Assembly: GCF_000189535.1 (NCBI RefSeq) | Contig: NC_015145.1 | Location: 930,001-994,000, forward strand | Origin: Pseudarthrobacter phenanthrenivorans Sphe3 | Lineage (GTDB): Bacteria > Actinomycetota > Actinomycetes > Actinomycetales > Micrococcaceae | Length of the DNA: 64,000 bases | Reading direction: 5' to 3' | Shown: positions 48,149 to 64,000 of the stretch, piece by piece | Position numbering within the stretch: position 1 is the stretch's first letter | How the letters are laid out: the number at the start of each line of letters is the position of its first letter | Made by a program: the position numbers and the translations under genes | The notes under the pieces: model-generated | Told to the model about the DNA's origin: nothing | Databases searched by the model: none | Seen by the model: the letters and a program-made list of their open reading frames with translations, nothing else

Positions 48149-49222
48149 TTAGCCCTGCAGCGAGTAGGCCTTGGGCAGCTTCAGGCCGCGTTCCTCCATG
48201 ACGGTGCGCAGGCGGGTGGGGTAGTCGGTGATGATGCCGTCCACGCCCAGGTCCATCAAACGCTCCATGTCCGCGGTGGTGTTCACGGTCCACGGTATGA
48301 CGGGCAGTCCGAGTTCGTGGGCTTCGGCGATCATCTGCGGGCTGACGGAGCGGAACGTGGGGGAGACGACGTCGTACCCCTGTGCGGCTGCGGCCTTGGG
48401 CAGGGAGCCGTCATAGTCGTCGATGTCGATGCCGCCCAGGTTGCGGCTGGCGCCGGGCTGGCCCACGCCCATCCAGGCGTCGCCGCTGGAAAGCGCCACG
48501 AGCGGCAGCTCCGGGGCGAGTTGTTTGGTGAGGTTCAGGGAGGACCAGTCGAAGGACTGCAGGGTGGAGCGGTCGGCCATGCCGGAGGCCTGGATCTCGG
48601 CCACCACGGCGCGGGTGAGGGATTCCATCCCGGCGCCGCCGATCTGGCTGCTTTCCACCTTGGTCTCCACGTTGAAGCCCACCTTCGCGGCGCCGGTGTC
48701 GCGGACCAGCTGGTACACATCCTTGAGCTCGGCGATCCGGTTGCCCTCGATGACGTCCTGCTCCGGGTAGCCGGCAAGCTGGGTGTAGCCGCAGTCCAGG
48801 GTCTTGACCTGGGCAAGGGACAGCTCTGCCACCCGATCGCCCACGTACGGGAATTCGGGGTCGCCGGCCTTGGCGGGTGCGGTGTCCACGCACTTGGCGG
48901 CCTGGATAATGTCGTCATGCCAGACGATCACCTTGCCGTCCTCGGTCAGGTGGGTGTCCAGTTCCAGGGTGGTCACGCCGAGGGCCAGGGAGTTCGCAAA
49001 CGCGGCCAGCGACTCCTCGGTCCACTCGCCGCGGCCGCCGCGGTGGCTCTGCAGGTCGAACGAGCCGTTGCGCTCGTTGACCTTCAGGGCGGAGGTGGCG
49101 GCACCGGCAGCGTTCGACGACGGCGTGGCGGATTCGTTTTCAGTGCTCGCGACGGCGGGGCCCGCCGAAGCGACCACGGCGAGAAGGGCGGCGGCTGCCG
49201 CGGACGTCAGGACTGTGCGCAT
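48149..49222 (-). CDS. Secreted glycerophosphodiester phosphodiesterase
   Basis: A 357-residue exported GDPD. A signal peptide (about residues 1-25, ending near GPAVAS) is followed by the TIM-barrel domain. Catalytic motifs are SHRGGRGEWTEES (His, Arg), TLELDTHLTEDGKVIVWHDD (Glu, Asp, His) and the later FNVETKVE. It cleaves glycerophosphodiesters to glycerol-3-phosphate and an alcohol outside the membrane. The length is normal. MscS follows after 63 bases in the same direction. Confidence 0.92.
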   Translation of the reverse strand: MRTVLTSAAAAALLAVVASAGPAVASTENESATPSSNAAGAATSALKVNERNGSFDLQSHRGGRGEWTEESLAAFANSLALGVTTLELDTHLTEDGKVIVWHDDIIQAAKCVDTAPAKAGDPEFPYVGDRVAELSLAQVKTLDCGYTQLAGYPEQDVIEGNRIAELKDVYQLVRDTGAAKVGFNVETKVESSQIGGAGMESLTRAVVAEIQASGMADRSTLQSFDWSSLNLTKQLAPELPLVALSSGDAWMGVGQPGASRNLGGIDIDDYDGSLPKAAAAQGYDVVSPTFRSVSPQMIAEAHELGLPVIPWTVNTTADMERLMDLGVDGIITDYPTRLRTVMEERGLKLPKAYSLQG

Positions 49223-49344
49223 GTGATGGTTCCTCCTGGATGACGGGGCCGGCTGTACCGCCGGTGACCCGTCAACGCTAGGCGGAACAGGTTGCCTGCC
49301 GGGTGCAGGAAGTTGGAGGGAAGGTTAACAGGGAAAGCTTGGCC

Positions 49345-50610
49345 CTAGGCAGGGTCCTCCACCTTTTCCGGCACGGGCAGCTCCGCCTGCCGCCCCACCG
49401 GACGCGGCTCCAGCCACACCCGCTCCCGCGGACCCGGCGGGTACGCGTGCCGCTTCCCGGTAAGGGTGATGATCCAGGCGGCCACCACCGGCAGCGCCGC
49501 GGCCACCGGAACCAGCATGGGGCCGCCCAGTACCAGCGCGGCCGAACCGTAGAGGGCGCCCACGGTGATGCCCAGCTGGATGGTAAGCACCGTGAGTCCG
49601 TTCGCGGCTTCCTGGTACTCACCGCCTGCCCGCAGGATGGCGGACTGGTTGTAGATGCCGATGGCGCCCAGCCCTGCACCCCAAACGGCCATGAGGACCA
49701 GCGCCACCACGAAGTTGCCCGCCGCAAGGGGTAGGAAGAACATGGACAGCGCGATCGCCGTCGTCGTTACAAGGAGCGAACGCCGCGGCCGGGAGTCCAC
49801 GGTGAGGCCCGCGATCCAGATGCCCAGCAGGCCGGAGCCGCCCAGGACAGTCAGCGACAGGCTGATGGCGTATTCCGGGAAGCCGGCGTCGCGGATGAAC
49901 GGGGCGATGTAGGTGAACAGTGCGAAGTGGGCCAGGACCAGCAGCGGCCAGGCGACAGCCACCGGCTTCACCCCCGGCTGGGCGATGGCCTTGCGCAGCG
50001 ACGGGCGGACGGCGTCGGAAATGCGCTGGACCCGCGGCAGCAGGAAGAAGGCAAGGACCGTCAGGACCAGGCCGAACCCTGCCAGCACCAGGAACGCGGC
50101 CCGCCAGCCGAGGAAACCACCCAGCGCCGTGCCAACGGGGGCGCCGATGGCCAGGCCCAGGCTGTTGCCGCTGAAGACGATGGCCAGGGCCTTGCCCACC
50201 TTGTCCGCCGGAACCACCCTGGCGACGAACGGCGCCATGGTGGTCCACAGCAGGCCGTGGGCAAGGCCGCCCACCAGGCGGGCGATCATCGCGGCCGTGA
50301 AGTCCGGGGCGAGTCCCACCATGGCGTTGCTGGCGGCGAAAGTCAGGACGAGCCCCACCAGCAGAGCGTGCCGCGGGATCCTGCCCAGCAGCCGGGCCGC
50401 CGGGACCACCGTGACCACAATGACGGCGGCATAAGCTGCCGCCAGGTAGCCGGCCACCGGTTCGGACACGTCCAGGCCGCTGCTGATTTGCGGCAGCAGC
50501 CCGGACGGCAGGAGCTCGGTGGTGATGGCGGTAAAGGCAATGGTGGCCAGGACCACCATTGCGGCGTAGGGAAAACGGGCAGGCGCCGGCGCGGAAATCG
50601 CGGAAGACAT
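49345..50610 (-). CDS. MFS transporter, AraJ/Cmx-like
   Basis: A 421-residue major facilitator with 12 helices. ITTELLPSGLLPQISSGLDVSEPVAGYL is the N-terminal block of the AraJ/Cmx group (given in part, residues about 28-55), which includes chloramphenicol and sugar efflux proteins. The motif C region NSLGLAIGAPVGTALGG is present. The ATG at 50610 is chosen; ATG at 50625 would add five residues. It is separated by 187 bases from the sulfosugar operon upstream and its link to that operon is unclear. Confidence 0.85.
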   Translation of the reverse strand: MSSAISAPAPARFPYAAMVVLATIAFTAITTELLPSGLLPQISSGLDVSEPVAGYLAAAYAAVIVVTVVPAARLLGRIPRHALLVGLVLTFAASNAMVGLAPDFTAAMIARLVGGLAHGLLWTTMAPFVARVVPADKVGKALAIVFSGNSLGLAIGAPVGTALGGFLGWRAAFLVLAGFGLVLTVLAFFLLPRVQRISDAVRPSLRKAIAQPGVKPVAVAWPLLVLAHFALFTYIAPFIRDAGFPEYAISLSLTVLGGSGLLGIWIAGLTVDSRPRRSLLVTTTAIALSMFFLPLAAGNFVVALVLMAVWGAGLGAIGIYNQSAILRAGGEYQEAANGLTVLTIQLGITVGALYGSAALVLGGPMLVPVAAALPVVAAWIITLTGKRHAYPPGPRERVWLEPRPVGRQAELPVPEKVEDPA

Positions 50611-50743
50611 GGGGGCGGGATCCATTCAAGGGAAGGTGTGGAACGCGGCGTTGCTGGCCGGACAAATTCCTCCATTAAATTTACAGGATCACGCCCCCTG
50701 CTCCATGCCTTCTCCGGCGAGTCGAACCGTGTCCGGGCCCACT

Positions 50744-50771
50744 CCGCCAGCCGCCAGCCGCCAGCCGCCGG
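50744..50771. repeat. Heptamer tandem repeat, four units
   Basis: Three exact CCGCCAG units and a fourth with one change (CCGCCGG), in the intergenic region between the small 62-residue gene and the MFS gene. It is probably slippage in GC-rich DNA. Confidence 0.8.
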
Positions 50772-50812
50772 ACCCGGTCCGGAGCCGGCGGGGACGGCCC
50801 GCTGCCCGCGGG

Positions 50813-51001
50813 CTACCGGGAACCGAAGTCTGTGTCGGTGTAGGACCCCGGCCGGACGGACGGGCCGCCCTGGCAGGTGCAGGTGCCCTGCACGTCGATC
50901 CGCACGGCCACCGGTGCGCCGGCGTCGAGGCGCAGGTTCAACGGGTTGGCGTCCCCAGCGGTGATCTTGAGGACTGGTTTTTCGGAAGTAATGGCTGACA
51001 T
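50813..51001 (-). CDS. 62-residue protein at the end of the sulfosugar operon, function unknown
   Basis: Short gene with AAAGGACAG just before the ATG at 51001, 49 bases after the isomerase gene and in the same direction. The protein has no signal peptide and no membrane helix. The centre is beta-rich (VAVRIDVQGT) and is followed by CTCQGG and a polar tail GSYTDTDFGSR. I do not recognise it. The good ribosome site, in-operon position and normal codon use support it as real. Confidence 0.6.
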   Translation of the reverse strand: MSAITSEKPVLKITAGDANPLNLRLDAGAPVAVRIDVQGTCTCQGGPSVRPGSYTDTDFGSR

Positions 51002-51050
51002 GGCTGTCCTTTCATGAAGGGGTTTAGGCGGGTTGCCTGGTGAAGTTGTT

Positions 51051-52310
51051 TTACTGGCCTGGCCGGCTTCCGCTGATCCGTGCGTCCAGCAGGCCTGCCG
51101 CGACTGCCGGAGCCAGCCCGGGCGCCAGCGGAAGCCGCGGGACCACCAGGCAGTGCCACAGGTGGTAAATGTCAGCCTTGCCGGACCATACGGTGGAGCT
51201 GACATTGCCGTTCTCGTCCAGTTCCTGCTTCCAGGAGCCGTGCTCGTAGTCGATGAACCAGTCGCGGGCGTGGTCCCAGATCCGCTCATACCAGTCGGCG
51301 TACTTCTGCTCGCCGGTGGCGATGTAGAGGGCGGCAGCACCTCCGATGGCCTCCGCAGGCACCCAGCGGATGCGGGTGGTGACAACCGGTTTGCCGTCCC
51401 AGTCGACGGTGTAGACAAAGCCTGGGTGGCCATCGGGCTCCCAGGCGTCGCGGATGGCCGCGTCGAACAGCCCGCGCGCGTCGTCCAGCAGCCAGCCCGG
51501 GACGTCCAGGCCGCGGGCCTCAAGCCCGGCGCGGAGGTGGAGGAGCAGGCGGGCCCACTCAACCCAGTGTCCGGGAGTTCCGCCGTAGGCGCGGAACTGG
51601 CTGGCCCGGTCATCGGTGTTGTACTCCGGCATCGGGTTCCACTCCGGGTCGAAGTGCTCGAAGACGCGGTAGTTGTTGTTGCGGGCGAAGTTGTGGATCA
51701 GCACCTCGGCGATGTGCAGGGCACGTTCCAGCCAGCGGTTCTCCCCGGTCACGTCGGCGACGATGAGGTAGGCCTCCACCGAGTGCATGCTGGCGTTGCC
51801 GCCGCGGTATGCCTCGGTTTCCGTGAACTCCCGGTTCCACGAGTCGAAGCACATGTTGGCCTCGTGGTCCCAGAACTTCGTGTCGGCGATCCGCAGCGCC
51901 TCGTCCAGCAGTTCGCGCGCTCCGGGACGCCCCGCGGCTACCGCACTGGCGGCGGCGAGGAGGACGAACGAGTGCTGGTAGCCGGACTTGGTGTCGTTCA
52001 CAGGGCCGTTCTCGTCCACCTCCGCGTACCAGCCGCCGAACTCATCATCGTGGAGGGCCCCGTTGAGTGCCCCGATGCCGTGGTCCACCAGGAGCGCGGC
52101 ACCCGGCCGTCCCATCAAAGCCGCAACGGAAAAACTGTGGACCATCCGGGCGGTGATCCAGAGATGGGTGGGCTTGTCGGCGAAAACCTTGCCGTAGTTG
52201 TCGAGCCAGCCGAATCCGGTAGGGACCTTGGCTGCCGCGGAGAAGTTGATCAGCCGGTCGGTTTCCGCCTCGAGCCAACGGGCATGTGCGGCACTGTTCA
52301 GCCACGTCAT
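51051..52310 (-). CDS. AGE-family isomerase, probable sulfoquinovose isomerase (YihS-like)
   Basis: A 419-residue (alpha/alpha)6-barrel protein of the N-acylglucosamine 2-epimerase family. The family His residues are visible in [40 protein letters not shown] and [13 protein letters not shown]. YihS of the E. coli sulfo-EMP pathway belongs to this group and converts sulfoquinovose to 6-deoxy-6-sulfofructose. The operon also holds the next two enzymes of that pathway, so this is the likely function. AGAGGAA precedes the ATG. Other aldose-ketose interconversions of the family remain possible. Confidence 0.85.
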
Positions 52311-52352
52311 GGTAATTCCTCTTTCTGATGCAGGTGCAGGTGAAATTGTGGG

Positions 52353-53096
52353 TCAGCCGACAGCGCTGAGGACGCCGCGGATGATAGTGGCGGCCGCTCC
52401 CAGGTAGGCCAGGATAATCAGCAGGATCTGGGCGGCGCGGGCGGGGACGAACTTCGATGCGACGTCTCCCAGCACCAGCCCGGCCAGGCAGGCCACGGCG
52501 ACGGCCGCCCACATGCCCCACGGCATCACAGGGAACGTCTCGGGTGCCGTAATGCCCTTGGAGATGAGCGAGAGTGCGCCGATGGTGAAAAAGTAGGGCT
52601 GCATGGTGGCCGCGAAGGACTTGTGCTGCCACCGGGTGGCGATGGAGTACATGCTGACCGCCGGGCCGCCCACTCCGGCCGCCGTGTTCATGAACCCGCT
52701 CAGGCCGCCGGCCGTGAAGAGATAGCGCCGGCGGGCTGGGAGGGTGGCGGACTTGAGGACCAGCAGGACGGTCAGTCCGGCGGCGAGGATCACTCCGATG
52801 GAGATCTCCAGGACCGCCGCCGGGATGAGGCGGATCAGGAACGCTGCGGGGATGATGCCAAGCAGGGCCGACGCCGAGAGCAGCAGGTACCGCTTCCAGT
52901 CGATGTCCCGGACCACCCGGAAGATGATGGCCCCCGCCGTCACGGCGCCGCACACGTTCACCAGCACCACGCCTTCCACCGGGCCCAGGAGCAGGACCAG
53001 GAAGGGGGCGGCCACCAGGGCGAAACCCATCCCGGTGATCCGCTGCATCCCCGCCCCCATCACTACGGCGCCCAGCACCAGCCCGGTGGTCAGCAC
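52353..53096 (-). CDS. TauE/SafE-family exporter, probably for sulfolactate or sulfite
   Basis: A 247-residue membrane protein with about eight helices and the TauE/SafE layout (GMGFALVAAPFLVLLLGP near the N-terminus, and the second-half repeat SGFMNTAAGVGGPAVSMYSI). Family members export sulfite, sulfoacetate or other sulfonates. In this operon the carbon product left after sulfosugar cleavage would be sulfolactate, so its export is the natural role. The GTG start follows the stop of the aldehyde dehydrogenase gene with no gap (TAG then GTG). Confidence 0.87.
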   Translation of the reverse strand: MLTTGLVLGAVVMGAGMQRITGMGFALVAAPFLVLLLGPVEGVVLVNVCGAVTAGAIIFRVVRDIDWKRYLLLSASALLGIIPAAFLIRLIPAAVLEISIGVILAAGLTVLLVLKSATLPARRRYLFTAGGLSGFMNTAAGVGGPAVSMYSIATRWQHKSFAATMQPYFFTIGALSLISKGITAPETFPVMPWGMWAAVAVACLAGLVLGDVASKFVPARAAQILLIILAYLGAAATIIRGVLSAVG

Positions 53097-54536
53097 CTAG
53101 GGCCTCCAGGCCACGTACTGGACCTCCTCGAATTCCTCGAGGCCAAGGCTTGAACCTTCCCGGCCCAGGCCGGACTGCTTGGCGCCGCCCATGGGTGCAA
53201 AGGCTACGGACGGCAGGGGATCGTTCACGCCCACGATGCCGGCTTCGAGCTGTTCCGGAATGTCCCAGCCGCGCTTCGGGCTGCCGCTCCAGACGTAGGC
53301 GGCAAGGCCCATCTCCGTGGCGTTGGCCTTCCGGATGGCTTCCTCCTCAGAGGAGAACGTGACGACGCCGGCTGCCGGGCCGAACACTTCCTCCGTCACC
53401 AGGGGTGCGTCATCGGGGACGTCCGCCAGCAGGGTGGGTGCCAGGAAGGAGCCCTGGCCGGGGACGTCGGTGCGCTGTGTGACGCGGCGGGCGCCCCGGT
53501 CAAGCGCGTCGTCGATCAGGGCCTGAACCGCTGACACCCGTTCCGCGTCGATGACGGGACCGAGGTCCGGAACCGGTGCGCCGCCGTCGGGAACGCCGTG
53601 GCCGATGCTCAGCGCGTCGAAGCGCGCGCCCAGCCTGGTGGCGAACTCCTCCGCGATGCTGTCCTGGACCAGGAAGCGGTTGGCCGCCACGCAGGACTGT
53701 CCGGTGTTGCGGAGCCGGCCGAGGACGGCGCCCTCCACGGCGGCATCCAGGTCCGCGTCCTCGAAGACGATGAAGGGCGCGTTGCCGCCCAGTTCCAGCA
53801 GCGGCCGCACGACGCGTTCGGAAGCGGAGGCCATGATCTGCCGGCCAACGCCCGTGGAGCCGGTGAAGCTGACGGCCCTGACCGCCGGGTGGGACATCAG
53901 GGCTGCGGTGATTTCCCGGGAGGGGCCGTGGACCAGGTTCACCACGCCGGCGGGGAAGCCGGCATCGTGCAGGACCTCGAACAGTCCGGTGGCAGCAAGC
54001 GGGGCCTTCTCAGACACCCGGCCCACCACGGTGCAGCCGGCGGCCAGCATCGCGGCGAGCTTCCGGGCCTGGATGGAAACCGGGAAGTTCCAGGGCGTGA
54101 GGCTGAGGGCCACGCCGATGGGCTTGCGCGTGCTGATGTGGCGGCGGCCGTGGAGTTCGGGCGGGCTGACGGTGCCCGTGGCGCGGCGCGCTTCCTCCGC
54201 GAACCAGCGGAAGTACTCGGCCGAGAAATCCACTTCCCCCTGTGCTTCGGGAAGCCGTTTGCCTGCCTCGAGCGCCAGGGTGTGGGCGAGCTCCTCGCGG
54301 CGTTCTGCCAGGAGGTCGGCGGCGTTGCGGAGCAAATCGGCCCGGTTGCGGACCGTGCTGCGCGACCAGGAACCGAAGGCCTGTGCCGCGGCGTCGGCGG
54401 CCTTGGTGGCATCGTCGCCGGTGCCCCAGGCCACCTCACCCACGGTGCTGCCGTTGCCGGGATCAGTCACGTCCTTGGCGGTTCCGGCGGCGTGCCAGGT
54501 GCCGTTGACAAGGTGCCGGGCTGATTTGAGGTTCAT
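53097..54536 (-). CDS. Aldehyde dehydrogenase, probable sulfolactaldehyde dehydrogenase
   Basis: A 479-residue NAD(P)-dependent aldehyde dehydrogenase of the succinate-semialdehyde group. Catalytic Cys282 (NTGQSCVAANR) and Glu248 (LELGGNAPF) are present, and TPWNFPVSIQARK and VTEEVFGP are normal. The coenzyme-binding segment that is usually KPAExTP reads VVGRVSEKAPLAA, so the conserved Lys is Arg. In sulfo-EMP-type pathways an enzyme of this family oxidises 3-sulfolactaldehyde to sulfolactate. AAAGG precedes the ATG at 54536. The frame stays open upstream to 55217, but that part overlaps the permease gene and is not coding. Confidence 0.87.
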   Translation of the reverse strand: MNLKSARHLVNGTWHAAGTAKDVTDPGNGSTVGEVAWGTGDDATKAADAAAQAFGSWSRSTVRNRADLLRNAADLLAERREELAHTLALEAGKRLPEAQGEVDFSAEYFRWFAEEARRATGTVSPPELHGRRHISTRKPIGVALSLTPWNFPVSIQARKLAAMLAAGCTVVGRVSEKAPLAATGLFEVLHDAGFPAGVVNLVHGPSREITAALMSHPAVRAVSFTGSTGVGRQIMASASERVVRPLLELGGNAPFIVFEDADLDAAVEGAVLGRLRNTGQSCVAANRFLVQDSIAEEFATRLGARFDALSIGHGVPDGGAPVPDLGPVIDAERVSAVQALIDDALDRGARRVTQRTDVPGQGSFLAPTLLADVPDDAPLVTEEVFGPAAGVVTFSSEEEAIRKANATEMGLAAYVWSGSPKRGWDIPEQLEAGIVGVNDPLPSVAFAPMGGAKQSGLGREGSSLGLEEFEEVQYVAWRP

Positions 54537-54609
54537 GAAGGGTGCCTTTCGTTGGGCTGGGAGGGGGTGGGCACGGCCGGGCGGGGGAGGGCCGCCGTCG
54601 TGATCATCC

Positions 54610-55425
54610 TCATCCCTTGCTGGCGCCTGCGGTGATGCCGGCCACGAAGTAGCGCTGCAGGAAGACGTAGGCAACCACCACGGGCAGGGAGGCCATGATG
54701 ACGCCGGCGAAGAGCAGCGGGTAGTCGGTTTGGAACTCGCCCTGGAAGCTGAGCAGTGCCAGCGGCAGGGTGCGGTTGCCGGGAGACTGGATGAACAGCA
54801 GCGGGTACAGCAGTTCGTTCCAGTGGATGACGAAGAGGAAGATGGCGGCCGCGGCGATGGACGGCGCGGACAGCGGCAGGGCGATGGAAACGTAGGTCCG
54901 CCAGGGCCCCGTCCCGTCAATCGAGGATGCCTCGTAGAGTTCCTTGGGCAGGGTCCGCATGAACCCGCCCAGGATGAAGACGGCGATGGGCAGCGTGGAC
55001 ACGAGGTTCGCCACCACCAGGCCGGCCAGGCTGTCCAGCAGCCCCAGCCGTCCGAAGAGGACATACAGCGGCACCATGTTGGCCTGCGCCGGGATGGCCA
55101 TACCCAGCACCAGGAAGCCGAAGATGGCCCAGGACATGAATCCACGGAGCCGGGACACGGCGTAGCCGGCAAGGCTGGCCAGGAACAGGGTGAGCGGCAC
55201 CGAGATGGCGGTGACAATCACGCTGTTCATGAAGGACGAGCCAAGGTCCTGGCCGCCGATTACCTCGGCGTAGTTGGCGGGGGAGAGGGACTGCGGCAGG
55301 CTGAACGGGCCGGCGAACAGTTCCTGCGTGGACTTGAAGCTGCCGAACCCCACCACGGTCAGCGGAACGATGATGATGACCGCGTAGATCGCGAGGATTC
55401 CGCGGCGGGTTATTGACGCGAGCAT
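54610..55425 (-). CDS. Carbohydrate ABC transporter permease (MalG-type)
   Basis: A 271-residue inner-membrane permease of the CUT1 group with six helices. The EAA loop reads ELYEASSIDGTGPWRTYVSIALP, the contact site for the ATPase. The gene starts five bases from the end of the partner permease. No ATP-binding gene is in the cluster, so a shared MsiK-like ATPase is probably used, as in many actinobacterial sugar systems. Confidence 0.93.
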   Translation of the reverse strand: MLASITRRGILAIYAVIIIVPLTVVGFGSFKSTQELFAGPFSLPQSLSPANYAEVIGGQDLGSSFMNSVIVTAISVPLTLFLASLAGYAVSRLRGFMSWAIFGFLVLGMAIPAQANMVPLYVLFGRLGLLDSLAGLVVANLVSTLPIAVFILGGFMRTLPKELYEASSIDGTGPWRTYVSIALPLSAPSIAAAAIFLFVIHWNELLYPLLFIQSPGNRTLPLALLSFQGEFQTDYPLLFAGVIMASLPVVVAYVFLQRYFVAGITAGASKG

Positions 55426-55429
55426 GCTG

Positions 55430-56392
55430 TCATTCCCCCTTCGGGGTGAGGCGGAGCAGCCGGCGCTGCAGCCAGGTGACCAGGGCGATCATCGCCATGA
55501 AGATGATCGACTGGGCGGCGGCGTAGCCGAACTCCGAGTTGGCAAAGGTGCTGTAGATGCGGGTGGAGAGGATGTCCAGGGACTGCTTGGGCGGGTTGCC
55601 GGCGATGCCCAGGATCAGGTCGAAGGCCTTGAACGACTGCACCGTGGTGTAGGCCACCACTATGGACGTTGCCGGCGCGACGAACGGCCAGGTGATGGAC
55701 TTGAACTGCTGCCACCTGTTGGCGCCGTCCATCTCCGCTGCCTCGTACAGTTCCCTGGGGATGGCCTGCAGGCCGGCGATGTACACCACCATCATCTGTC
55801 CGGCGTGGAACCACACCTGCGTCACGGCCACCCAGTACAGTGCCTGGGCGTTGTTTCCGAGATACGAGCCCTGGAGGGCATCCAGGCCGACGGTGTCCAG
55901 GACGGTGTTCGCCAGTCCGAAGTTGGGATCGTAGATGAACTTCCAGATGAAGGCCACGGACACCGAGGACAGGATGGTGGGGAAGAAGAACAGGGCCCGG
56001 AGCAGGACACTGCCCCGGGAGTTCTTGGTCAGCAGCAGCGCCAGGATCAGCGAGAACAGCGTCTGCGCGATCACCACCAGCAGCACGAACTTCAGGTTGT
56101 TGGTCAGGGCGTTGGTGAAGAGCGAGTCGCTGGTGAAGGCCCGGATGAAGTTGTCCAGGCCAACGTAGTTGAACGCCGCCGAGAACCCGTTCCAGTCCGT
56201 CACGGCGTACTGGAACGCCTGCAGGGTGGGCATCACCAGGAAGAAGGCGATGACGGCAACTGCGGGGAGCGGGAAGAGGTACAGTGCCGGATTCACCCGG
56301 GTGGGCGAGCGGCGGCGCTTTTTCGCGGAGTCAGTTTCCGTCTGGCTGTCCGGCGCCTTCCGCGTGGGCGCCGTCCCCGGATGGATGCTCAT
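55430..56392 (-). CDS. Carbohydrate ABC transporter permease (MalF-type)
   Basis: A 320-residue permease with a charged cytosolic N-terminus of about 35 residues (TRKAPDSQTETDSAKKRRR) and six helices. The EAA loop reads ELYEAAEMDGANRWQQFKSI. Its ATG overlaps the stop of the binding-protein gene (ATGA). It forms the channel with the MalG-type subunit. Confidence 0.94.
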   Translation of the reverse strand: MSIHPGTAPTRKAPDSQTETDSAKKRRRSPTRVNPALYLFPLPAVAVIAFFLVMPTLQAFQYAVTDWNGFSAAFNYVGLDNFIRAFTSDSLFTNALTNNLKFVLLVVIAQTLFSLILALLLTKNSRGSVLLRALFFFPTILSSVSVAFIWKFIYDPNFGLANTVLDTVGLDALQGSYLGNNAQALYWVAVTQVWFHAGQMMVVYIAGLQAIPRELYEAAEMDGANRWQQFKSITWPFVAPATSIVVAYTTVQSFKAFDLILGIAGNPPKQSLDILSTRIYSTFANSEFGYAAAQSIIFMAMIALVTWLQRRLLRLTPKGE

Positions 56393-57675
56393 AGCCGTTC
56401 GTCAACAATCTTCTGGGCGGCCTCTGCTGCCTGCTCCGGGCTGGTGCCGGAGATGACGGCGGTGGCGCTGGCTTCCACGGCGTTGCGGACGTCCAGGTTC
56501 ATGAACTGGAACCGTGCCGCCAGGGCCGTCTTCTTATCCAGCCACGGGCTCAACCGCTTGAGGTCCGGGTTGGTGTAGTCCACGTCCTTCACGGCAACGT
56601 GCTGCGCTGTCTGGTTGGCGTAGTAGGCGGCGTTCTCCGGCTCGGACAGGAAGTCGATCCACGCGGCTGCCGCGGCCTGGTTCTTGCTGGCGGAGTTCAC
56701 GCCCAGGATGAACGTGGCGTTGTAGACGCCCTCGTACTTTCCGTTGCCGTCCGAGGTGTTGGGGAACACCAGCTCGATGGGGAACTGGGCGCCCAGGCCC
56801 CGCACTGCGGCGATGTGGTACGAGCCGGTGGCCAGCATGGCGGCCTGGCCCTGCGAGAACAGGTTCTGCGCAGGTTCCACGGCCGTGCCGGTGGCGTTGG
56901 GCTGCAGGTACGGGACCATGTCCTTGTACTGGTTGAGCATCTTGATGAACCAGTCGTCGGTGACCTTCAGCTTGCCCTGTTCAATCTGGGCGCACATGTC
57001 GTCCACGGGCGCGTTGTTGGCGATCATGCAGTTGAACAGCTGCCCGCCGTTGCCAACGTCGCCGCCGGGCCAGGAGAGGGGGATGACTCCCGAGGAGGCG
57101 AGCTTTTCGCACATGGCCAGGAAGGAGTCCCAGTCCTTGGGTGCAAGCTCGGCGCCGGCCTTGTCGAAGAGGTCCACGTTGGCCATGGGCATGGGGAACA
57201 CCACCTGGTACGGCAGGCCCAGCTGGCTCTCCCCGGACTTGCCGGCCGAGAGCAGGCCGTCCTGGTAGTTGCCTACAGCCTTGCTGTCCTTGAGTTCGGT
57301 GTAGATGCCGGCGTCGGTGAAGTTCTTGAACTGGGCGCCGCGGAAGGTGGCAAACGCGTCACCGATGGACCCGCCGCGCAGTTTCTGCAGGGCCTGCGCG
57401 TTGTAGTCGTTGGAGGTGGAAATGTCCTGGGCAACCTCCACGCCGTCGTGCATCGCGGCGAAGCGCTTGATCAGTTCGTCGAACACCGCCTTGTCCTCGC
57501 CGCGCCAGTGGGCAAAGGACACCTTGCCGGTGACGGCTCCGGTGGACGGTGCGGCAGGGCCCGTGGCGCCGCCGGGAGCGGTGGAACCGCCTGGCCCGGC
57601 ACATGCTGCCGCGGTGGCTCCGAAGCCCAGGGCCCCCAGGATTGCGATGGCCTGCCTGCGTGAAATCTGACTCAC
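56389..57675 (-). CDS. ABC transporter substrate-binding lipoprotein
   Basis: A 428-residue solute-binding protein of the CUT1/extracellular family 1 type. The N-terminus has a twin-arginine-like SRRQAIAILGALGF and a lipobox ending in Cys (TAAAC), then a Gly/Pro/Ser-rich spacer. Folded domain features such as GKVSFAHWRGEDKAVFDELI and GQAAMLATGSYHIAAV are typical. In this operon the ligand is probably sulfoquinovose or sulfoquinovosyl glycerol. GTG start with GAGGAG upstream. Confidence 0.92.
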   Translation of the reverse strand: MSQISRRQAIAILGALGFGATAAACAGPGGSTAPGGATGPAAPSTGAVTGKVSFAHWRGEDKAVFDELIKRFAAMHDGVEVAQDISTSNDYNAQALQKLRGGSIGDAFATFRGAQFKNFTDAGIYTELKDSKAVGNYQDGLLSAGKSGESQLGLPYQVVFPMPMANVDLFDKAGAELAPKDWDSFLAMCEKLASSGVIPLSWPGGDVGNGGQLFNCMIANNAPVDDMCAQIEQGKLKVTDDWFIKMLNQYKDMVPYLQPNATGTAVEPAQNLFSQGQAAMLATGSYHIAAVRGLGAQFPIELVFPNTSDGNGKYEGVYNATFILGVNSASKNQAAAAAWIDFLSEPENAAYYANQTAQHVAVKDVDYTNPDLKRLSPWLDKKTALAARFQFMNLDVRNAVEASATAVISGTSPEQAAEAAQKIVDERL

Positions 57676-57764
57676 AATAATCTCCTCGTTGAGTGTTTGC
57701 TGTGCCTTGTTACTGACTGCGGAAAGGGGATGCCACGGCCCAGCGGCTGTGGCTCCCGGGAGTG

Positions 57765-58649
57765 TTACGCGTTGGTCCGTTGGGCGGAGACGACGTCGTC
57801 CACAACGGCGCAGAGGCGCTGCAGCCGCCGGACGGCATCAGTGGAAAGGGATTCGACGACGTCGGGCGCACCGATGCAGGAGGCCCAGACGGCGCGGCCG
57901 GAGAGGAAGCCGCTGGCGCCTTCCAGGCAGGCCCACCGCACGGCGTCGGGGAAGACGTCCTCGGGGACGCCGGAGGAGAGGACCACCCAGGGCCCGTCAA
58001 TGGCGCTGGTCAGTTCGGCGCAGGCGGCGCGGACCTCGGCTTCGGGGGCCTGGCCCTTGAACGGGACCTCGGCCTTGTAGAGGTCTGCGCCCAGGCTGCC
58101 GAGCTCCTTGGCGGCTGCCAGGATGCCGGCGTTCCAGTCAAAGTCGCCGCCGGCCAGGGGCTTGCGGGAGACGGGTTCGATGATGCTGATCAGCCCGGCG
58201 GACCGGCAGCTGTCCACGAATTCGCGGACCATCTCCACCCGGCCTTCGGCTGGCTCGTCCGGGCGGTACAGGACCAGGAGCTTCAGGGCCTTCACGCCCA
58301 GTGCCTTGTATTTGTGGGGGTCCACCAGGCGGTCGATGGTCACCTCACCCACCAGCTCGCCGTGGGCGGGCTCGAAGTGGTCCGCGGAGGCGATCAGCCC
58401 GCAGCCGGGGTCCACCACGCCGGCCTCGATGGCCTGGTCCAGGGCGAACTGGCGGTCGATGAGGATGCCGGAGGCGTACGGGGTGAGGATCCGGGCGGCC
58501 TCCAGCTTGAAGTTGCGGAGGTCATCGTCGGTGACGGGCTGGTCCGTGTGCTCGGCGAACATGTTGCGCATGGCTTCGCGCTGGTCCACGGCGAGCATCG
58601 CGAACGCACCGGACGGACGCTGGAGGGCGGAGAGGTCTGTGGGGCTCAT
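57765..58649 (-). CDS. Sulfofructose-1-phosphate aldolase (YihT-like)
   Basis: A 294-residue class I aldolase. It is closely similar along its length to E. coli YihT: SGAFAMLAVDQREAMRNMF at the N-terminus, ALKLLVLYRPDEPAEGR, SIIEPVSRKP, GADLYKAEVP with the Schiff-base Lys192, and GASGFLSGRAVW near the end. YihT cleaves 6-deoxy-6-sulfofructose-1-phosphate to dihydroxyacetone phosphate and 3-sulfolactaldehyde. Relatives include tagatose-1,6-bisphosphate aldolases, but the operon supports the sulfosugar role. The kinase gene upstream ends 41 bases before its start. Confidence 0.91.
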   Translation of the reverse strand: MSPTDLSALQRPSGAFAMLAVDQREAMRNMFAEHTDQPVTDDDLRNFKLEAARILTPYASGILIDRQFALDQAIEAGVVDPGCGLIASADHFEPAHGELVGEVTIDRLVDPHKYKALGVKALKLLVLYRPDEPAEGRVEMVREFVDSCRSAGLISIIEPVSRKPLAGGDFDWNAGILAAAKELGSLGADLYKAEVPFKGQAPEAEVRAACAELTSAIDGPWVVLSSGVPEDVFPDAVRWACLEGASGFLSGRAVWASCIGAPDVVESLSTDAVRRLQRLCAVVDDVVSAQRTNA

Positions 58650-58690
58650 GGGCTGCTTCTTTCAGCTGGGCGGTTTGGTGTGCAGGTTCG

Positions 58691-59590
58691 TTAGGTAAGG
58701 GCAGGCGTGATGGCCTGGTGCGGGATGGCGGAGCGGCCGTCCAGGCCTTCGCAGGAGGCGGAGGCGGTACGGCCGGCGAAGGCGGCGGCTTCCACGAGGG
58801 GGAGGCCGGCTGCGACGGCGGCGAGGATGGCGCCGTGGTACACGTCGCCGGCGCCGAGGGTGGAGACGATGGTGGCGGGTGTTGCCGGGACGTGCACGGC
58901 ATCGGCAGCGCCGTCCTTGACCCAGGCACCGTCGGAGCCGGCGGTGGCGACGACGGCGGAGGCGCCGTCGTCGACTGCTTTCTGCAGCAGCGCCGCGGGG
59001 GAGAGGTCCGCGCCGTACTCGGCGCGGAGCCGTTCGATGGTGGGCACGTAGAGGGCGATTCCCCGGGGGTTGAAGGCGGGGATGGGGTTGCCGGCGTCCA
59101 CGCTGATGTTCAGCGTGGACGGGTTGAAGTCCGGGAGGGACGCAACGGCGTTCCAGCCCAGATGGTCCACATGGACCCAGGATGCGGCCGCCAGCAGTTC
59201 ATGGAAGCGGCTGCCGGCGGGAAAGCTGACCGGCGGGACAGGGCGGGTGACAATGGCCCGGCTTTCCGATGCCTTGCTGACCACGATCACGCTGGCGCCG
59301 GTTTTGACGCCGGCGTCCCGGACCACCGCGGACGTATCCACGCCCTCGGCCTGCAGGCCGCTGATGATGCGGTCGCCTTCCTCGTCGGTGCCAAGGACAC
59401 CTGCGAAGGCGGTGCTGGCTCCTGCCCGCGCTGCTGCCACGGCCGCCGTAGCTGCAGGGCCGCCGCCCGCCGTCGCGAAGTCCGAGGCGACGGTGCGGCT
59501 GTCCGCGGCGGGGTAGTCCTGGACCAGGGCGATGGCGTCAAGGGTGGCGCAGCCTACGAAGAGCAGGGTTCCAGATGACGGTTGGTGCAC
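58691..59590 (-). CDS. PfkB-family kinase, probable 6-deoxy-6-sulfofructose kinase (YihV-like)
   Basis: A 299-residue ribokinase-fold sugar kinase. The N-terminal LLFVGCATLDAIALV strand, the substrate motif GGGPAATAAVAAARAG and the C-terminal anion-hole and catalytic motif STLGAGDVYHGAIL are intact. In sulfo-EMP pathways such a kinase phosphorylates sulfofructose for the aldolase encoded just downstream. GTG at 59590 with GAGGTGG upstream is chosen; an in-frame start at 59635 lies in the promoter region. It is the first gene of the leftward operon, behind the shared operator. Confidence 0.88.
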   Translation of the reverse strand: MHQPSSGTLLFVGCATLDAIALVQDYPAADSRTVASDFATAGGGPAATAAVAAARAGASTAFAGVLGTDEEGDRIISGLQAEGVDTSAVVRDAGVKTGASVIVVSKASESRAIVTRPVPPVSFPAGSRFHELLAAASWVHVDHLGWNAVASLPDFNPSTLNISVDAGNPIPAFNPRGIALYVPTIERLRAEYGADLSPAALLQKAVDDGASAVVATAGSDGAWVKDGAADAVHVPATPATIVSTLGAGDVYHGAILAAVAAGLPLVEAAAFAGRTASASCEGLDGRSAIPHQAITPALT

Positions 59591-59623
59591 GTTCCACCTC
59601 GTTGTAGTAGCGGCTGGTACTGA

Positions 59624-60874
<1,251 letters not shown>

Positions 60875-60883
60875 GTAAGTTGG

Positions 60884-60899
60884 TGTTGGAATAGCAACA
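60884..60899. promoter_or_regulatory. Candidate DeoR operator 2
   Basis: TGTTGGAATAGCAACA, 15 of 16 bases identical to operator 1, with intact TGTTG/CAACA arms. It lies 46 bases upstream of the DeoR start, so autoregulation is likely. Confidence 0.75.
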
Positions 60900-60944
60900 T
60901 TGCGTCGGGCTCGTATACGGCGGGTGGGGCAGAAAGTAGGGGAT

Positions 60945-61727
60945 ATGAGCACCGCACGGGAAGAGGCGCCGCTGACGCCGCGCCAGCGCACCATACTGGA
61001 CGAGCTGGGCCGGCGCGGGTTCATTTCCACCACCGACCTGGCGGAAACCTTCGCCGTCTCGGACATGACGGTGCGCCGGGACACCCGGGTGCTGTCCAAG
61101 CTGGGACTGGTCCGGGTGGTCCACGGCGGGGTGAGCGCCATCCAGGGGCACGGGCAGAATGCGGACTTCGCGGCCCGTGTCCGGGAGGACGCGGACGGCA
61201 AGCTGCGGGTGGCGCGCGCCTGCGTGTCAATGATCGGGGAGCGGGACGCCATCATCCTGGACGCCGGGACCACCACGTACCAGATCGCCCAGGAGCTGCC
61301 CTCCACCTTTACGGGCACCATCATTACGCATTCGGCTCCGGCCATCCAGCGCTGCCTGCAGCTCACGGCTGCCCGCACCATCTGCCTGGGCGGTGAGCTG
61401 CTGCTGGACAGCCAGGCGTTCAACGGCCCCATGACGGTGACCGCCGCCGCCGGCCTGCGGGCCAAGACGGCGTTCATCGGCGTGAGCGGCATCCACGACG
61501 AGGCGTATTACATTGAGCGGGACGTGGAGCGTGCCACTAAGATCGCCCTCATGAACTCTGCGGAACAGGTGGTGGTGGTGGCAACCCACCAGAAGATGCT
61601 GCGGTATGCGCTGGCCCGGCTGGCGGCCTTTGACGCTGTGGACGTCCTGGTGACGGACGCGCCCCCGCCCCGGGAAATCGAGACCGCCCTGCGCGCCGCC
61701 GACGTGAAGCTCGTGGTGGCCGCGTGA
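60945..61727 (+). CDS. DeoR-family transcription regulator of the sulfosugar cluster
   Basis: A 260-residue DeoR-type regulator. The N-terminal helix-turn-helix (GFISTTDLAETFAVSDMTVRRD region, residues about 25-47) is followed by VVHGGVSAI and an effector domain with ILDAGTTTYQIAQEL, IITHSAP, GLRAKTAFIGVSGIHDE and a C-terminal KxxxVVVATHQKM-like segment. The sulfoquinovose regulator of E. coli (YihW) is of the same family; a phosphorylated pathway intermediate is the likely inducer. ATG at 60945 has AGGGGAT upstream. It overlaps the next gene by four bases. Confidence 0.91.
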   Translation: MSTAREEAPLTPRQRTILDELGRRGFISTTDLAETFAVSDMTVRRDTRVLSKLGLVRVVHGGVSAIQGHGQNADFAARVREDADGKLRVARACVSMIGERDAIILDAGTTTYQIAQELPSTFTGTIITHSAPAIQRCLQLTAARTICLGGELLLDSQAFNGPMTVTAAAGLRAKTAFIGVSGIHDEAYYIERDVERATKIALMNSAEQVVVVATHQKMLRYALARLAAFDAVDVLVTDAPPPREIETALRAADVKLVVAA

Positions 61728-62656
61728 GCGCCCCGCTGCGGGTGTCGTTGCCCGACCAGAAGCTGGTGGACGCGCTGGAGCCGGCTGCCGGCGTCGAGTT
61801 TTTCGTCTGGGACTTTTCCGGACCGGCTCCCGCTGACCGCCTGGACATGGTGGTGCCGCCGTACATGCAGGGGCCTGAGGTGCTGGCGGCGCTGGAGTCC
61901 GTGGACATCGGCCTCATCCAGAGCCAGTCCATCGGGTACGACGGCGTCGAGGACGTGCTGCCCGCAGGCTGCGTTTTCGCCAATGCGGCGGGGGTCCATG
62001 AGACGTCGACGGCGGAGCTCGCCCTGGGCATGATGATCGCCAGCCAGCGCGGCATGGCCGACTTCGCCCGCAACCAGGCCAGCGGCATATGGGACAACAG
62101 CCAGCGGCCCAGCCTGGCTGACCGGCGCGTGCTGCTGGTGGGCTACGGCGGAGTGGGCAAGGCCATCGAAGCCCGGCTGCTTCCGTTCGAGACGCAGGTG
62201 ACCCGGATGGCCAGCCGTGAACGCGAGGACGCCGGCGGCAGGATTTACGGGATCGACGCACTGTATGAGCAGCTGCCGCTGCATGACATCGTGGTGGTCA
62301 GCGTGCCGCTCAGCGAACAGACCCGGCAGCTGGTGGACGCGAAGTTCCTGGCCGCGATGCCGGACGGGGCGCTGCTGGTGAACGTTGCCCGCGGCCCCGT
62401 GGCGGACACGGACGCGCTGCTGGCGGAGGCGTCGTCGGGCCGTTTGCGTGCCGCCCTGGACGTCACCGATCCGGAACCGCTGCCGGCGGACCATCCGCTG
62501 TGGACCACCCCCGGCGTGCTCATCACTCCGCACGTGGGCGGGGCCAGTTCGGCCATGTTCCCGCGGATGGTCCGGCTGATCCGGAAGCAGATCGGGCTGA
62601 TGCTGGAAGGCAAGGAGCCGGTGAACGTTGTGCTGGGCGGCCCGTCCCGGGGTTAG
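61724..62656 (+). CDS. D-isomer-specific 2-hydroxyacid dehydrogenase
   Basis: A 310-residue NAD-linked dehydrogenase. The coenzyme loop is VLLVGYGGVGKAIEARL; the catalytic Arg is in LVNVARGPVADTDAL, the Glu in DVTDPEPLPADHPLW and the His in ITPHVGGAS. The GTG start overlaps the DeoR stop (GTGA), so the two are coupled. A step on sulfolactate or its keto acid is possible but is not part of the pathway as known. A general 2-ketoacid reductase is equally possible. Confidence 0.86.
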   Translation: MSAPLRVSLPDQKLVDALEPAAGVEFFVWDFSGPAPADRLDMVVPPYMQGPEVLAALESVDIGLIQSQSIGYDGVEDVLPAGCVFANAAGVHETSTAELALGMMIASQRGMADFARNQASGIWDNSQRPSLADRRVLLVGYGGVGKAIEARLLPFETQVTRMASREREDAGGRIYGIDALYEQLPLHDIVVVSVPLSEQTRQLVDAKFLAAMPDGALLVNVARGPVADTDALLAEASSGRLRAALDVTDPEPLPADHPLWTTPGVLITPHVGGASSAMFPRMVRLIRKQIGLMLEGKEPVNVVLGGPSRG

Positions 62657-62692
62657 GTTCCGCTGCTTGGGAAAGTTACCGGGCGCCCGCTG

Positions 62693-63952
62693 CTAGATTG
62701 CCGGTTCGCGCCGGCGCCGGAAGACCATCCGGAGGTGGTCCCGGAAGCGGAGGCTGTTCCGCCTGCTGACCACGATGACCGCGGCCAGGGCGGCCAGCAG
62801 GACTACTGCGCCGCCGGCAGCCACGGACCAGCGCGCCCCGAACTCGGACCCGATCCACCCCATGAGCGGCGCCCCCACAGCCGTTCCGCCTTGGAGGACG
62901 GCCAGGTAGAGGGCCAGGACGCGTCCGCGGAACTGGGGTTCCACGGATAGCTGGATGCTGGTGTTGCAGCTGTTCAGGAAGGTGATGGATGCCAGGCCCA
63001 CCGGGATCAGGACGGCCGCGTACAGCCAGAACGACGGCGATACGGCGCCAAGGAGCGTAAAGGCACCGAGTCCCAGTGCCCCGCCGAGCAGGAACCGCAG
63101 CCGCGGACCGGCCCGGCGCGCGGCGAGCAGTGCGCCTGCCAGGGTGCCTACCGCCATGATGGAGCCGAGGAGCCCGAATTCACCGGGGCCCACCCCGAAC
63201 TCCGTGGTGGCCATCAGCGCGTTGACTATGGGGAAGTTCATGCCGAACGCGCCCAGGATCCCCACCAGGACCATGATCAGCATCAGGTCCGGCCTGTTGC
63301 GCACGTACCGCACGCCTTCAGCCACCTGGTGCTTACCCCTGCTGGCCGCTGCCGCCGGGGCGAGTTCGGAGGTGCGGATCTGGAACAGCGAGATGATCAC
63401 CGCGGCGAAGCTGGCGGCGTTCAGCAGGAAGACCGGGCCCGTGCCCACCCAGGCGATCAGCACGCCGGCGATGGCGGGGCCCGTCAGCCGGGCGGTGTTA
63501 AAGGAGGCCGAGTTGAGGGCCACCGCGTTGGAGATGTTCTCCTGCCCCACCAGCTCCGAGACGAAGGCCTGGCGGGAGGGGGCGTCGATGGCGCTCGCGA
63601 TGCCCAGGCAGAGGGCCGCAGCGTAGGCGTGCCAGAGCTGGGCGGTGCCGGTCACCACCAGGAGTCCCAGGGCAAGGCCGGTCAGGCCCATGGCCACCTG
63701 CGTCCACAGCAGGATCACGCGTTTCCGGTACCGGTCCGCGAGCACCCCGCCATACGGTCCCAGGAGCAGCATGGGAAGGAACTGCAGCCCGGTGGTGATG
63801 CCCACCGCCGCCCCCGAGTAGTTGGTAAGGACGGTCAGGACCAGCCAGTCCTGCGCCACCCGCTGCATCCAGGTACCGATGTTGGACACCAGGGCGCCGC
63901 TGGCCCAGATCCGGTAGTTGCGGTTTTCCAGGGCCCGGAACATGGCGCTCAT
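62693..63952 (-). CDS. MFS transporter, EntS-like
   Basis: A 419-residue major facilitator with 12 helices. The start FRALENRNYRIWASGALVSNIGTWMQRVAQDWLVL (given as the residue 4-38 region) is typical of the EntS/MFS_3 group, and GVLADRYRKRVIL is motif A. Many members export siderophores or drugs. Its ATG overlaps the stop of an upstream gene, so the two form an operon. It converges on the 2-hydroxyacid dehydrogenase. Confidence 0.87.
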   Translation of the reverse strand: MSAMFRALENRNYRIWASGALVSNIGTWMQRVAQDWLVLTVLTNYSGAAVGITTGLQFLPMLLLGPYGGVLADRYRKRVILLWTQVAMGLTGLALGLLVVTGTAQLWHAYAAALCLGIASAIDAPSRQAFVSELVGQENISNAVALNSASFNTARLTGPAIAGVLIAWVGTGPVFLLNAASFAAVIISLFQIRTSELAPAAAASRGKHQVAEGVRYVRNRPDLMLIMVLVGILGAFGMNFPIVNALMATTEFGVGPGEFGLLGSIMAVGTLAGALLAARRAGPRLRFLLGGALGLGAFTLLGAVSPSFWLYAAVLIPVGLASITFLNSCNTSIQLSVEPQFRGRVLALYLAVLQGGTAVGAPLMGWIGSEFGARWSVAAGGAVVLLAALAAVIVVSRRNSLRFRDHLRMVFRRRREPAI

Positions 63953-64000
63953 TTGCCGCTCATCTCCTGCATGATGTGCGCGGCCCGGCTCAGGATCTGC
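63949..64000 (-). CDS. C-terminal end of an upstream gene (partial)
   Basis: The last 16 codons of a leftward gene, ending QEMSGK and a TGA that overlaps the MFS start (ATGA). Too little is visible to name it. A MarR-type regulator often precedes such transporters, but nothing here proves that. Confidence 0.6.
   Translation of the reverse strand, partial: QILSRAAHIMQEMSGK

Follow-up and report, generated by a model that had tools for sequence, protein, structure and literature searches.

A predicted sulfoquinovose catabolism cluster of the Arthrobacter AK04 type in Pseudarthrobacter phenanthrenivorans Sphe3, with a likely DeoR operator and a small Cys-x-Cys protein

Sulfoquinovose (SQ) is a sulfur sugar of plants, the turnover of which contributes a large flux to the sulfur cycle. 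The closest described systems for its degradation are those of Arthrobacter sp. AK01 and AK04, which, according to the main text of PMC8873060, have the same architecture as the locus analyzed here and grow on SQ with release of sulfolactate. The present analysis concerns a stretch of 64,000 nucleotides from the genome of the soil bacterium Pseudarthrobacter phenanthrenivorans Sphe3 (assembly GCF_000189535.1, contig NC_015145.1, forward-strand positions 930,001 to 994,000), called the window in the following, and within it the gene cluster at positions 50813-62656. Judged from its sequence, this is almost certainly an SQ catabolism cluster of the sulfo-EMP (sulfo-Embden-Meyerhof-Parnas) type, as in Arthrobacter AK04. 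The original prediction had stated that pathways of this type are known in Arthrobacter, and the match to the AK04-type cluster bears this out; the gene set is already described, and in the main texts of PMC8873060 and PMC10755693 the cluster, its product sulfolactate and its sulfoquinovosidase (SQase) are published. Novelty had been expected in additional genes and in the regulation, and the sole unpublished features found fall exactly there, namely a conserved palindrome that is likely the DeoR operator, a family of 62-aa Cys-x-Cys proteins, and a gene for a 2-hydroxyacid dehydrogenase, all of which look new compared with these main texts.

The locus is divergent, and all genes that had been predicted are present with open reading frames (ORFs). 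The kinase operon on the minus strand comprises, in the order of transcription, the genes for the kinase, the aldolase, the solute-binding protein, two permeases, the aldehyde dehydrogenase, the TauE protein, the isomerase and a 62-aa ORF, with intergenic distances between -4 and 89 bp. The plus strand encodes a Gfo/Idh/MocA protein (sqgA), followed by deoR and the 2-hydroxyacid dehydrogenase gene. Two of these genes had not been named before, i.e., the 62-aa ORF, the stop codon of which lies at 50813, and the 2-hydroxyacid dehydrogenase gene, which ends at 62656. The enzymes that carry the assignment are the following:

51051..52310, minus strand: sulfoquinovose-sulfofructose isomerase (YihS type, AGE family)
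57765..58649, minus strand: sulfofructose-1-phosphate aldolase (YihT type) with Schiff-base Lys192
58691..59590, minus strand: PfkB kinase, probable sulfofructose kinase, GTG start at 59590
59732..60874, plus strand: SqgA, NAD+-dependent sulfoquinovosidase of family GH188

The comparison with the characterized Escherichia coli enzymes, which had been proposed as a check, revealed 60% identity of the isomerase to YihS over 409 aa and 49% identity of the aldolase to YihT over 292 aa. The predicted Schiff-base Lys192 of the aldolase was found within the motif LGADLYK and is aligned with its counterpart in YihT. Among solved structures the isomerase matched a protein named NAG (N-acetylglucosamine) isomerase (2afa, 591.9 bits), YihS (2rgk, 591.5 bits) and SQ isomerase (7ag4, 587.5 bits) about equally. 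The aldolase reached 282.3 bits with the sulfofructose-1-phosphate aldolase 7ag1; the next kind of protein followed at 54.2 bits, and LacD-type or tagatose-bisphosphate aldolases at about 52 bits. The cluster could, in principle, resemble the yih cassette only and serve another sugar or sugar phosphate, via a tagatose or fructose pathway or N-acylglucosamine. The best NCBIfam model of the isomerase is indeed D-mannose isomerase, with a score below the cut-off of that model, and the kinase, besides its weak relation to YihV, also has one to ribokinases and ketohexokinases. This reading is nevertheless extremely improbable, because the aldolase is far nearer to the sulfofructose-1-phosphate aldolase than to LacD, the isomerase is so similar to YihS, SqgA has retained the sulfonate-binding residues R166 and K172, a TauE gene is present in the cluster, and growth on SQ has been published for relatives with such an architecture. 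A tagatose or fructose pathway was rejected on the basis of the aldolase and isomerase scores. Grouping of the aldolase and the kinase with such pathways had been named as the outcome that would overturn the prediction; judged from match scores, it is clearly not seen for the aldolase, and more weakly so for the kinase. The predicted sulfo-EMP type is supported, as the isomerase, the aldolase and the kinase each have a sulfo-EMP enzyme as their best or a near-best solved-structure match.

Glycoside cleavage had been part of the predicted pathway without a clear enzyme. The step can be retained, and it has an enzyme, since the Gfo/Idh/MocA protein is, by its sequence, an ortholog of the crystallized NAD+-dependent GH188 sulfoquinovosidase SqgA described in PMC10755693. 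The two best matches in the PDB were SqgA structures (8qc2, 769.5 bits; 8qc3, 752.2 bits), followed at a distance by 8zn9 (363.5 bits) and an inositol dehydrogenase (85.9 bits). Eight of the nine catalytic and sulfonate-binding residues are found at the numbers cited in the text of that paper (K107, Y136, R166, L170, K172, E189, H193, H321). The ninth is cited as Glu163, and here Val is at position 163 and Glu at 164; this is a matter of numbering, because the same stretch is identical in the crystallized chains. The predicted absence of a classical GH31 sulfoquinovosidase was confirmed genome-wide: a search with PF01055 found nothing in Sphe3, but was positive in 6 of 14 control genomes. Of the two known SQase families, GH188 is thus the only one with a candidate here, namely SqgA. 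A mutarotase had also been reported as absent, which is true for the cluster, but not for the genome, where E. coli YihR has three matches. The best of them is an aldose-1-epimerase with 44% identity (G000:C1:3926310-3927188, minus strand) in an unrelated neighbourhood away from the SQ cluster, with a LacI-type gene and a secreted glycanase-like gene as neighbours, as judged by eye.

To analyze the distribution, 150 genomes of the same genus were searched, and sqgA was found in 45 of them (E up to 1e-60), including the Sphe3 genome. From these 45 genomes 20 longer loci were picked. The gene set from the isomerase to SqgA recurs in all 20, with identities of 68-100% and exceptions in four loci: the isomerase gene is relocated in L053, L055 and L057, and isomerase, DeoR and 2-hydroxyacid dehydrogenase were not detected in L056. 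This recurrence, together with the identities of the isomerase and the aldolase to the E. coli enzymes, shows that the cluster is not a chance assembly.

The genes for import, sulfolactaldehyde oxidation and export are these:

56389..57675, minus strand: ABC solute-binding lipoprotein, probable binder of SQ or SQ-glycerol (PF13416 and PF01547 above cut-off; ligand inferred)
55430..56392, minus strand: sugar ABC permease 1 (ORF 83-99% identical in 20/20 relative loci; family assigned by eye)
54610..55425, minus strand: sugar ABC permease 2 (ORF 84-100% identical in 20/20 relative loci; family assigned by eye)
53097..54536, minus strand: GabD-like aldehyde dehydrogenase, probable sulfolactaldehyde dehydrogenase (PF00171), ATG at 54536
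52353..53096, minus strand: TauE/SafE permease (PF01925, 70.9 bits, above cut-off), probably the sulfolactate exporter

Several observations weigh against the assignment of the complete pathway. The kinase is the weakest of the enzyme assignments, with 32% identity to YihV over 298 aa; its best solved-structure match is the sulfofructose kinase 7ag6 (97.7 bits), but ribokinase follows only 24 bits lower (73.5 bits). The predicted sugar ABC importer is present as a binding protein and two permeases, but an ATPase gene is lacking within the cluster. The aldehyde dehydrogenase resembles enzymes of the succinate-semialdehyde dehydrogenase type, the E. coli enzyme 3jz4 being its best PDB match (408.4 bits), and no sulfolactaldehyde-specific model was matched in NCBIfam. 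Its genomic context makes sulfolactaldehyde the probable substrate. Five loci with TOBE_2-bearing (MalK-type) ATPases exist elsewhere in the genome, and one of these could serve the SQ importer. As a side observation, similarity to the E. coli homolog is much lower for the kinase than for the rest of the enzymes of the cluster. The sulfonate-binding residues of YihV, which we take to be K27, N109 and R138, look not strictly kept in the alignment with the kinase.

TauE probably exports sulfolactate, by analogy with the proposal in the text of PMC8873060. Complete breakdown of sulfolactate was rejected as an alternative: the SuyB-type domain PF04295 had no match in the genome and all Xsc matches were below the curated cut-off, with SuyA, CuyA and ComDE lying outside this search. 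The lack of a SuyB-type domain and of an Xsc match above the cut-off is consistent with sulfolactate as the end product, as in AK01 and AK04.

In the proposed pathway, the gene identities and the residues are observed and the substrates and the export are deduced from them. SQ glycosides, probably SQ-glycerol, would be imported by the binding protein and the two permeases, energized by an ATPase encoded elsewhere, and SqgA would liberate SQ via a transient NAD+-dependent oxidation at C3. The isomerase would convert SQ to sulfofructose and the PfkB kinase would phosphorylate it to sulfofructose 1-phosphate, which the aldolase would cleave into dihydroxyacetone phosphate, to be used by the cell, and sulfolactaldehyde. 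The latter would be oxidized to sulfolactate by the aldehyde dehydrogenase and leave the cell via TauE.

The elements that probably govern the expression of the cluster are:

60945..61727, plus strand: DeoR-family regulator, ATG at 60945
59642..59657, no strand assigned: operator 1, TGTTGGAATAACAACA, in the divergent promoter region of the kinase operon and sqgA
60884..60899, no strand assigned: operator 2, TGTTGGAATAGCAACA, between sqgA and deoR
59627..59655, minus strand: TTGTTA-17-TATATT, a promoter-like sequence ahead of the kinase operon that overlaps operator 1

The regulator has the helix-turn-helix and sensor domains of the DeoR family (PF08220 and PF00455, both above cut-off) and is 27% identical to E. 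coli CsqR over 252 aa. According to PMC10991401, Actinobacteria have DeoR-type homologs of CsqR next to yihV and yihT; the text of that paper contains no mention of an operator, a palindrome or a consensus. The palindrome TGTTGGAAnnnCAACA is likely the operator of the DeoR protein, as predicted from its occurrence. The pattern TGTTGN6CAACA has two sites in the window, compared with 0.04 expected. When up to two mismatches to TGTTGGAATARCAACA were allowed, three sites were found in the genome, i.e., the two sites of the cluster, which are exact, and a third with two mismatches, versus none for the reversed pattern as control. In 30 loci centred on sqgA, that of the window included, operator 1 was found in 30 and operator 2 in 29. 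The strict palindrome was present upstream (operator 1) in 17 and behind sqgA (operator 2) in 18 of the 20 longer loci, and its density was 41 in 338,976 bases of these 20 SQ loci versus 1 in 455,907 bases of 38 non-SQ loci. On the other side of the balance, the strict form of operator 1 is missing in L053, L055 and L057, which have TGTGTGAAAAACAACACA at this position, and that of operator 2 in L049 and L056.

The promoter-like sequence is the single match to a sigma-70-type consensus in 50300-63000, versus a mean of 0.9 in shuffled sequences, and is thus weak alone; the region is nearly invariant in the alignment of the relatives. Terminator-like sites (5 versus 6.4 expected) were not used as evidence by themselves. 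The DeoR protein would repress both divergent transcripts as well as its own gene via the two TGTTGGAAnnnCAACA operators, and an inducer, SQ or an intermediate, would release it. Here, the conservation of the operators is observed, and from it we infer the direction of the regulation and the existence of the inducer. No paper on an SQ operator of Arthrobacter turned up in the literature search, and the main texts of PMC8873060 and PMC10755693 use neither the word DeoR nor operator-site. The 16-bp operator offers a sequence handle to find further members of the regulon and to build SQ-responsive switches in Gram-positive soil bacteria.

A further copy of the operator precedes a phosphohexomutase gene in 6 of the 20 longer loci (L044, L048, L049, L050, L053, L057). 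The gene product begins with MDLS-SFKAYDVRG, and Pfam classified the one protein tested as phosphoglucomutase/phosphomannomutase. In L053 a TauE gene (87% identity; L053:13748-14488, plus strand) is followed by the small ORF and then by an operator and the phosphohexomutase gene. The main text of PMC8873060 describes the AK01 cluster as having no obvious permease. TauE adjoins the SQ cluster in L053, and if L053 is AK01, the gene is there despite that account.

The two additional genes of the cluster are located at its ends:

50813..51001, minus strand: 62-aa protein with a Cys-x-Cys motif from the final ORF of the operon, which is preceded by the RBS-like (ribosome-binding-site-like) sequence AAAGGA
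61724..62656, plus strand: D-isomer 2-hydroxyacid dehydrogenase (PF02826, 147 bits), overlapping deoR by 4 bp

The 62-aa protein has no match in Pfam or NCBIfam. A first search (E up to 0.01) yielded 106 homologs, and a second one, from a broader alignment and with E up to 0.001, yielded 219, of which 120 were listed. Among the listed matches of both searches, those with a name were called hypothetical or uncharacterized, except for one spore coat protein U-like, and the record names were Arthrobacter, Pseudarthrobacter, Paenarthrobacter or Micrococcaceae. The AK01 homolog is LN996_01405. In searches that scored the best 21 candidates per genome, matches were found at the family level in 10 of 295 genomes, all in one of 32 genera, and at the order level in 3 of 297 genomes, including one from another family with a weak match of 25 bits. 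By sequence, the protein family thus appears nearly confined to one genus of the GTDB.

Alternatively, the ORF might encode no protein and be either conserved non-coding DNA or a fragment left by decay. Near sqgA (within 12.5 kb, from hand-copied coordinates) it is full-length in 29, partial in 5 and absent in 11 of the 45 genomes, the 'none' of G092 being uninformative because its sqgA lies at a contig end. Two AlphaFold2 runs gave no confident fold (mean pLDDT, the predicted local distance difference test, 59.8 and 66.6), and these values were too low for a fold search. The ratio of nonsynonymous to synonymous substitution rates (dN/dS) was below 1 in frame in all six groups analyzed (0.20-0.58), but in the SQ-c group, which consists of one pair, the value of 0.58 was the same in frame 1 as in frame 0. 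In the other five groups, however, the in-frame values (0.20-0.41) were well below those of the other two frames. Furthermore, paralogs in unrelated operons share the start, the Cys-x-Cys motif and a C-terminal Y-x-D motif, and among 39 diverse members Cys43 is invariant and at least 90% have Cys41. A purine run resembling an RBS precedes the ORF, and an Rfam search of 49000-64000 found no known RNA at E up to 0.01. A non-coding stretch or fragment is therefore very unlikely.

In 10 of the 20 longer loci the small ORF comes after TauE; in 2 it comes after the isomerase, which is also the arrangement of the window. A remnant was seen in 3 loci, and the ORF was not found in 5. The shortened remnants behind the isomerase in L038, L045 and L054 have kept the C-terminal part alone. 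An SQ-only gene was rejected, because paralogs occur in other operons. In 40 hand-chosen non-SQ loci, analyzed with crude gene calling and with fragments counted once, 42 copies lie behind genes for BCCT transporters (25), FdhA-like dehydrogenases (9), MFS transporters (3, at about 460-540 bp), VOC-like proteins (2) or a 2-hydroxyacid dehydrogenase (1), or behind none of these (2). The gene names FdhA, GbcA, MHS, VOC, APC, BASS and MoaA are presumed from the appearance of the sequences. One protein each of the FdhA-like, BCCT, MFS and phosphohexomutase neighbours was searched with Pfam, and the FdhA-like one has zinc alcohol-dehydrogenase domains. Also the Sphe3 genome has a second copy, which lies behind an FdhA-like gene (G000:C1:3662189-3662374, plus strand). 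Tentatively, the ORF may encode a microprotein, almost restricted to one genus, that has been positioned at, or close to, the 3' ends of unrelated catabolic operons, i.e., for SQ (behind TauE or the isomerase), for uptake of the glycine-betaine type (behind BCCT) and for formaldehyde oxidation (behind the FdhA-like gene). There it might serve these operons as a common accessory, tuning a transporter or capturing either a reactive aldehyde or a metal via Cys-x-Cys, and in the SQ locus it would belong to the DeoR regulon of TGTTGGAAnnnCAACA, which in some relatives would include the phosphohexomutase. The literature search yielded nothing on the family, and in a word search it was absent from the main texts of PMC8873060 and PMC10755693. 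Occurring both with SQ genes and with betaine or formaldehyde genes, the protein is approachable in culturable strains.

The 2-hydroxyacid dehydrogenase gene is 80-93% identical in 13 of the 20 relative loci, partial with 61% in L044, and lacking in six. The best solved matches of the protein are glycerate/glyoxylate dehydrogenases. Speculatively, it could be an (S)-sulfolactate dehydrogenase, so that sulfolactate would partly be re-oxidized to sulfopyruvate and not only exported. The overlap with deoR, behind sqgA, fits such a function, as do the matches to glycerate, glyoxylate and phosphoglycerate dehydrogenases, the membership of SlcC of Chromohalobacter in the same enzyme family (a likeness at the level of the family) and the D-3-phosphoglycerate dehydrogenase gene beside GH188 in the two Tyr-variant clusters described in the text of PMC11465081. 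Yet no sulfopyruvate outlet was found, since the genome has neither a SuyB-type domain nor an Xsc above the cut-off, and 7 of the 20 loci, including the AK01-like L053, lack the gene or have an unlike one. Re-oxidation is thus unlikely, and sulfolactate export is retained as the final step.

Taken together, the locus can be placed among the known systems. With the GH188 Tyr-variant clusters, as described in the text of PMC11465081, it shares GH188, a probable sulfolactaldehyde dehydrogenase, a probable sulfofructose kinase, a regulator, an ABC transporter and a dehydrogenase of the D-3-phosphoglycerate type, but SqgA of the window has Leu170 instead of Tyr, a YihS isomerase is nearby, and a sulfolactate sulfo-lyase is lacking. 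It has homologs of YihS, YihT and YihV and a DeoR-family regulator in common with the yih cassette of E. coli, but it has GH188 instead of the GH31 enzyme YihQ, a dehydrogenase instead of the reductase YihU, and an ABC importer and TauE in place of YihO/YihP. SqgA matches the enzyme of Kaur et al. 2023 (PMC10755693, PDB 8QC2-8QC8) nearly over its full length, with the same active-site and sulfonate-binding residues and no consequential difference from its published description. A word search of the main text of Kaur et al. 2022 (PMC8873060) found no DeoR operator, 2-hydroxyacid dehydrogenase, phosphohexomutase or small ORF. The genes shared with AK04/AK01 are those for the isomerase, the kinase, the aldolase, a GabD-type dehydrogenase, the ABC importer, TauE (AK04) and the IolG/Gfo-Idh-MocA protein, and a GH31 SQase and a mutarotase are likewise absent from the cluster. 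The analysis adds a further genome to those with the AK04-type pathway, here together with an assigned SQase.

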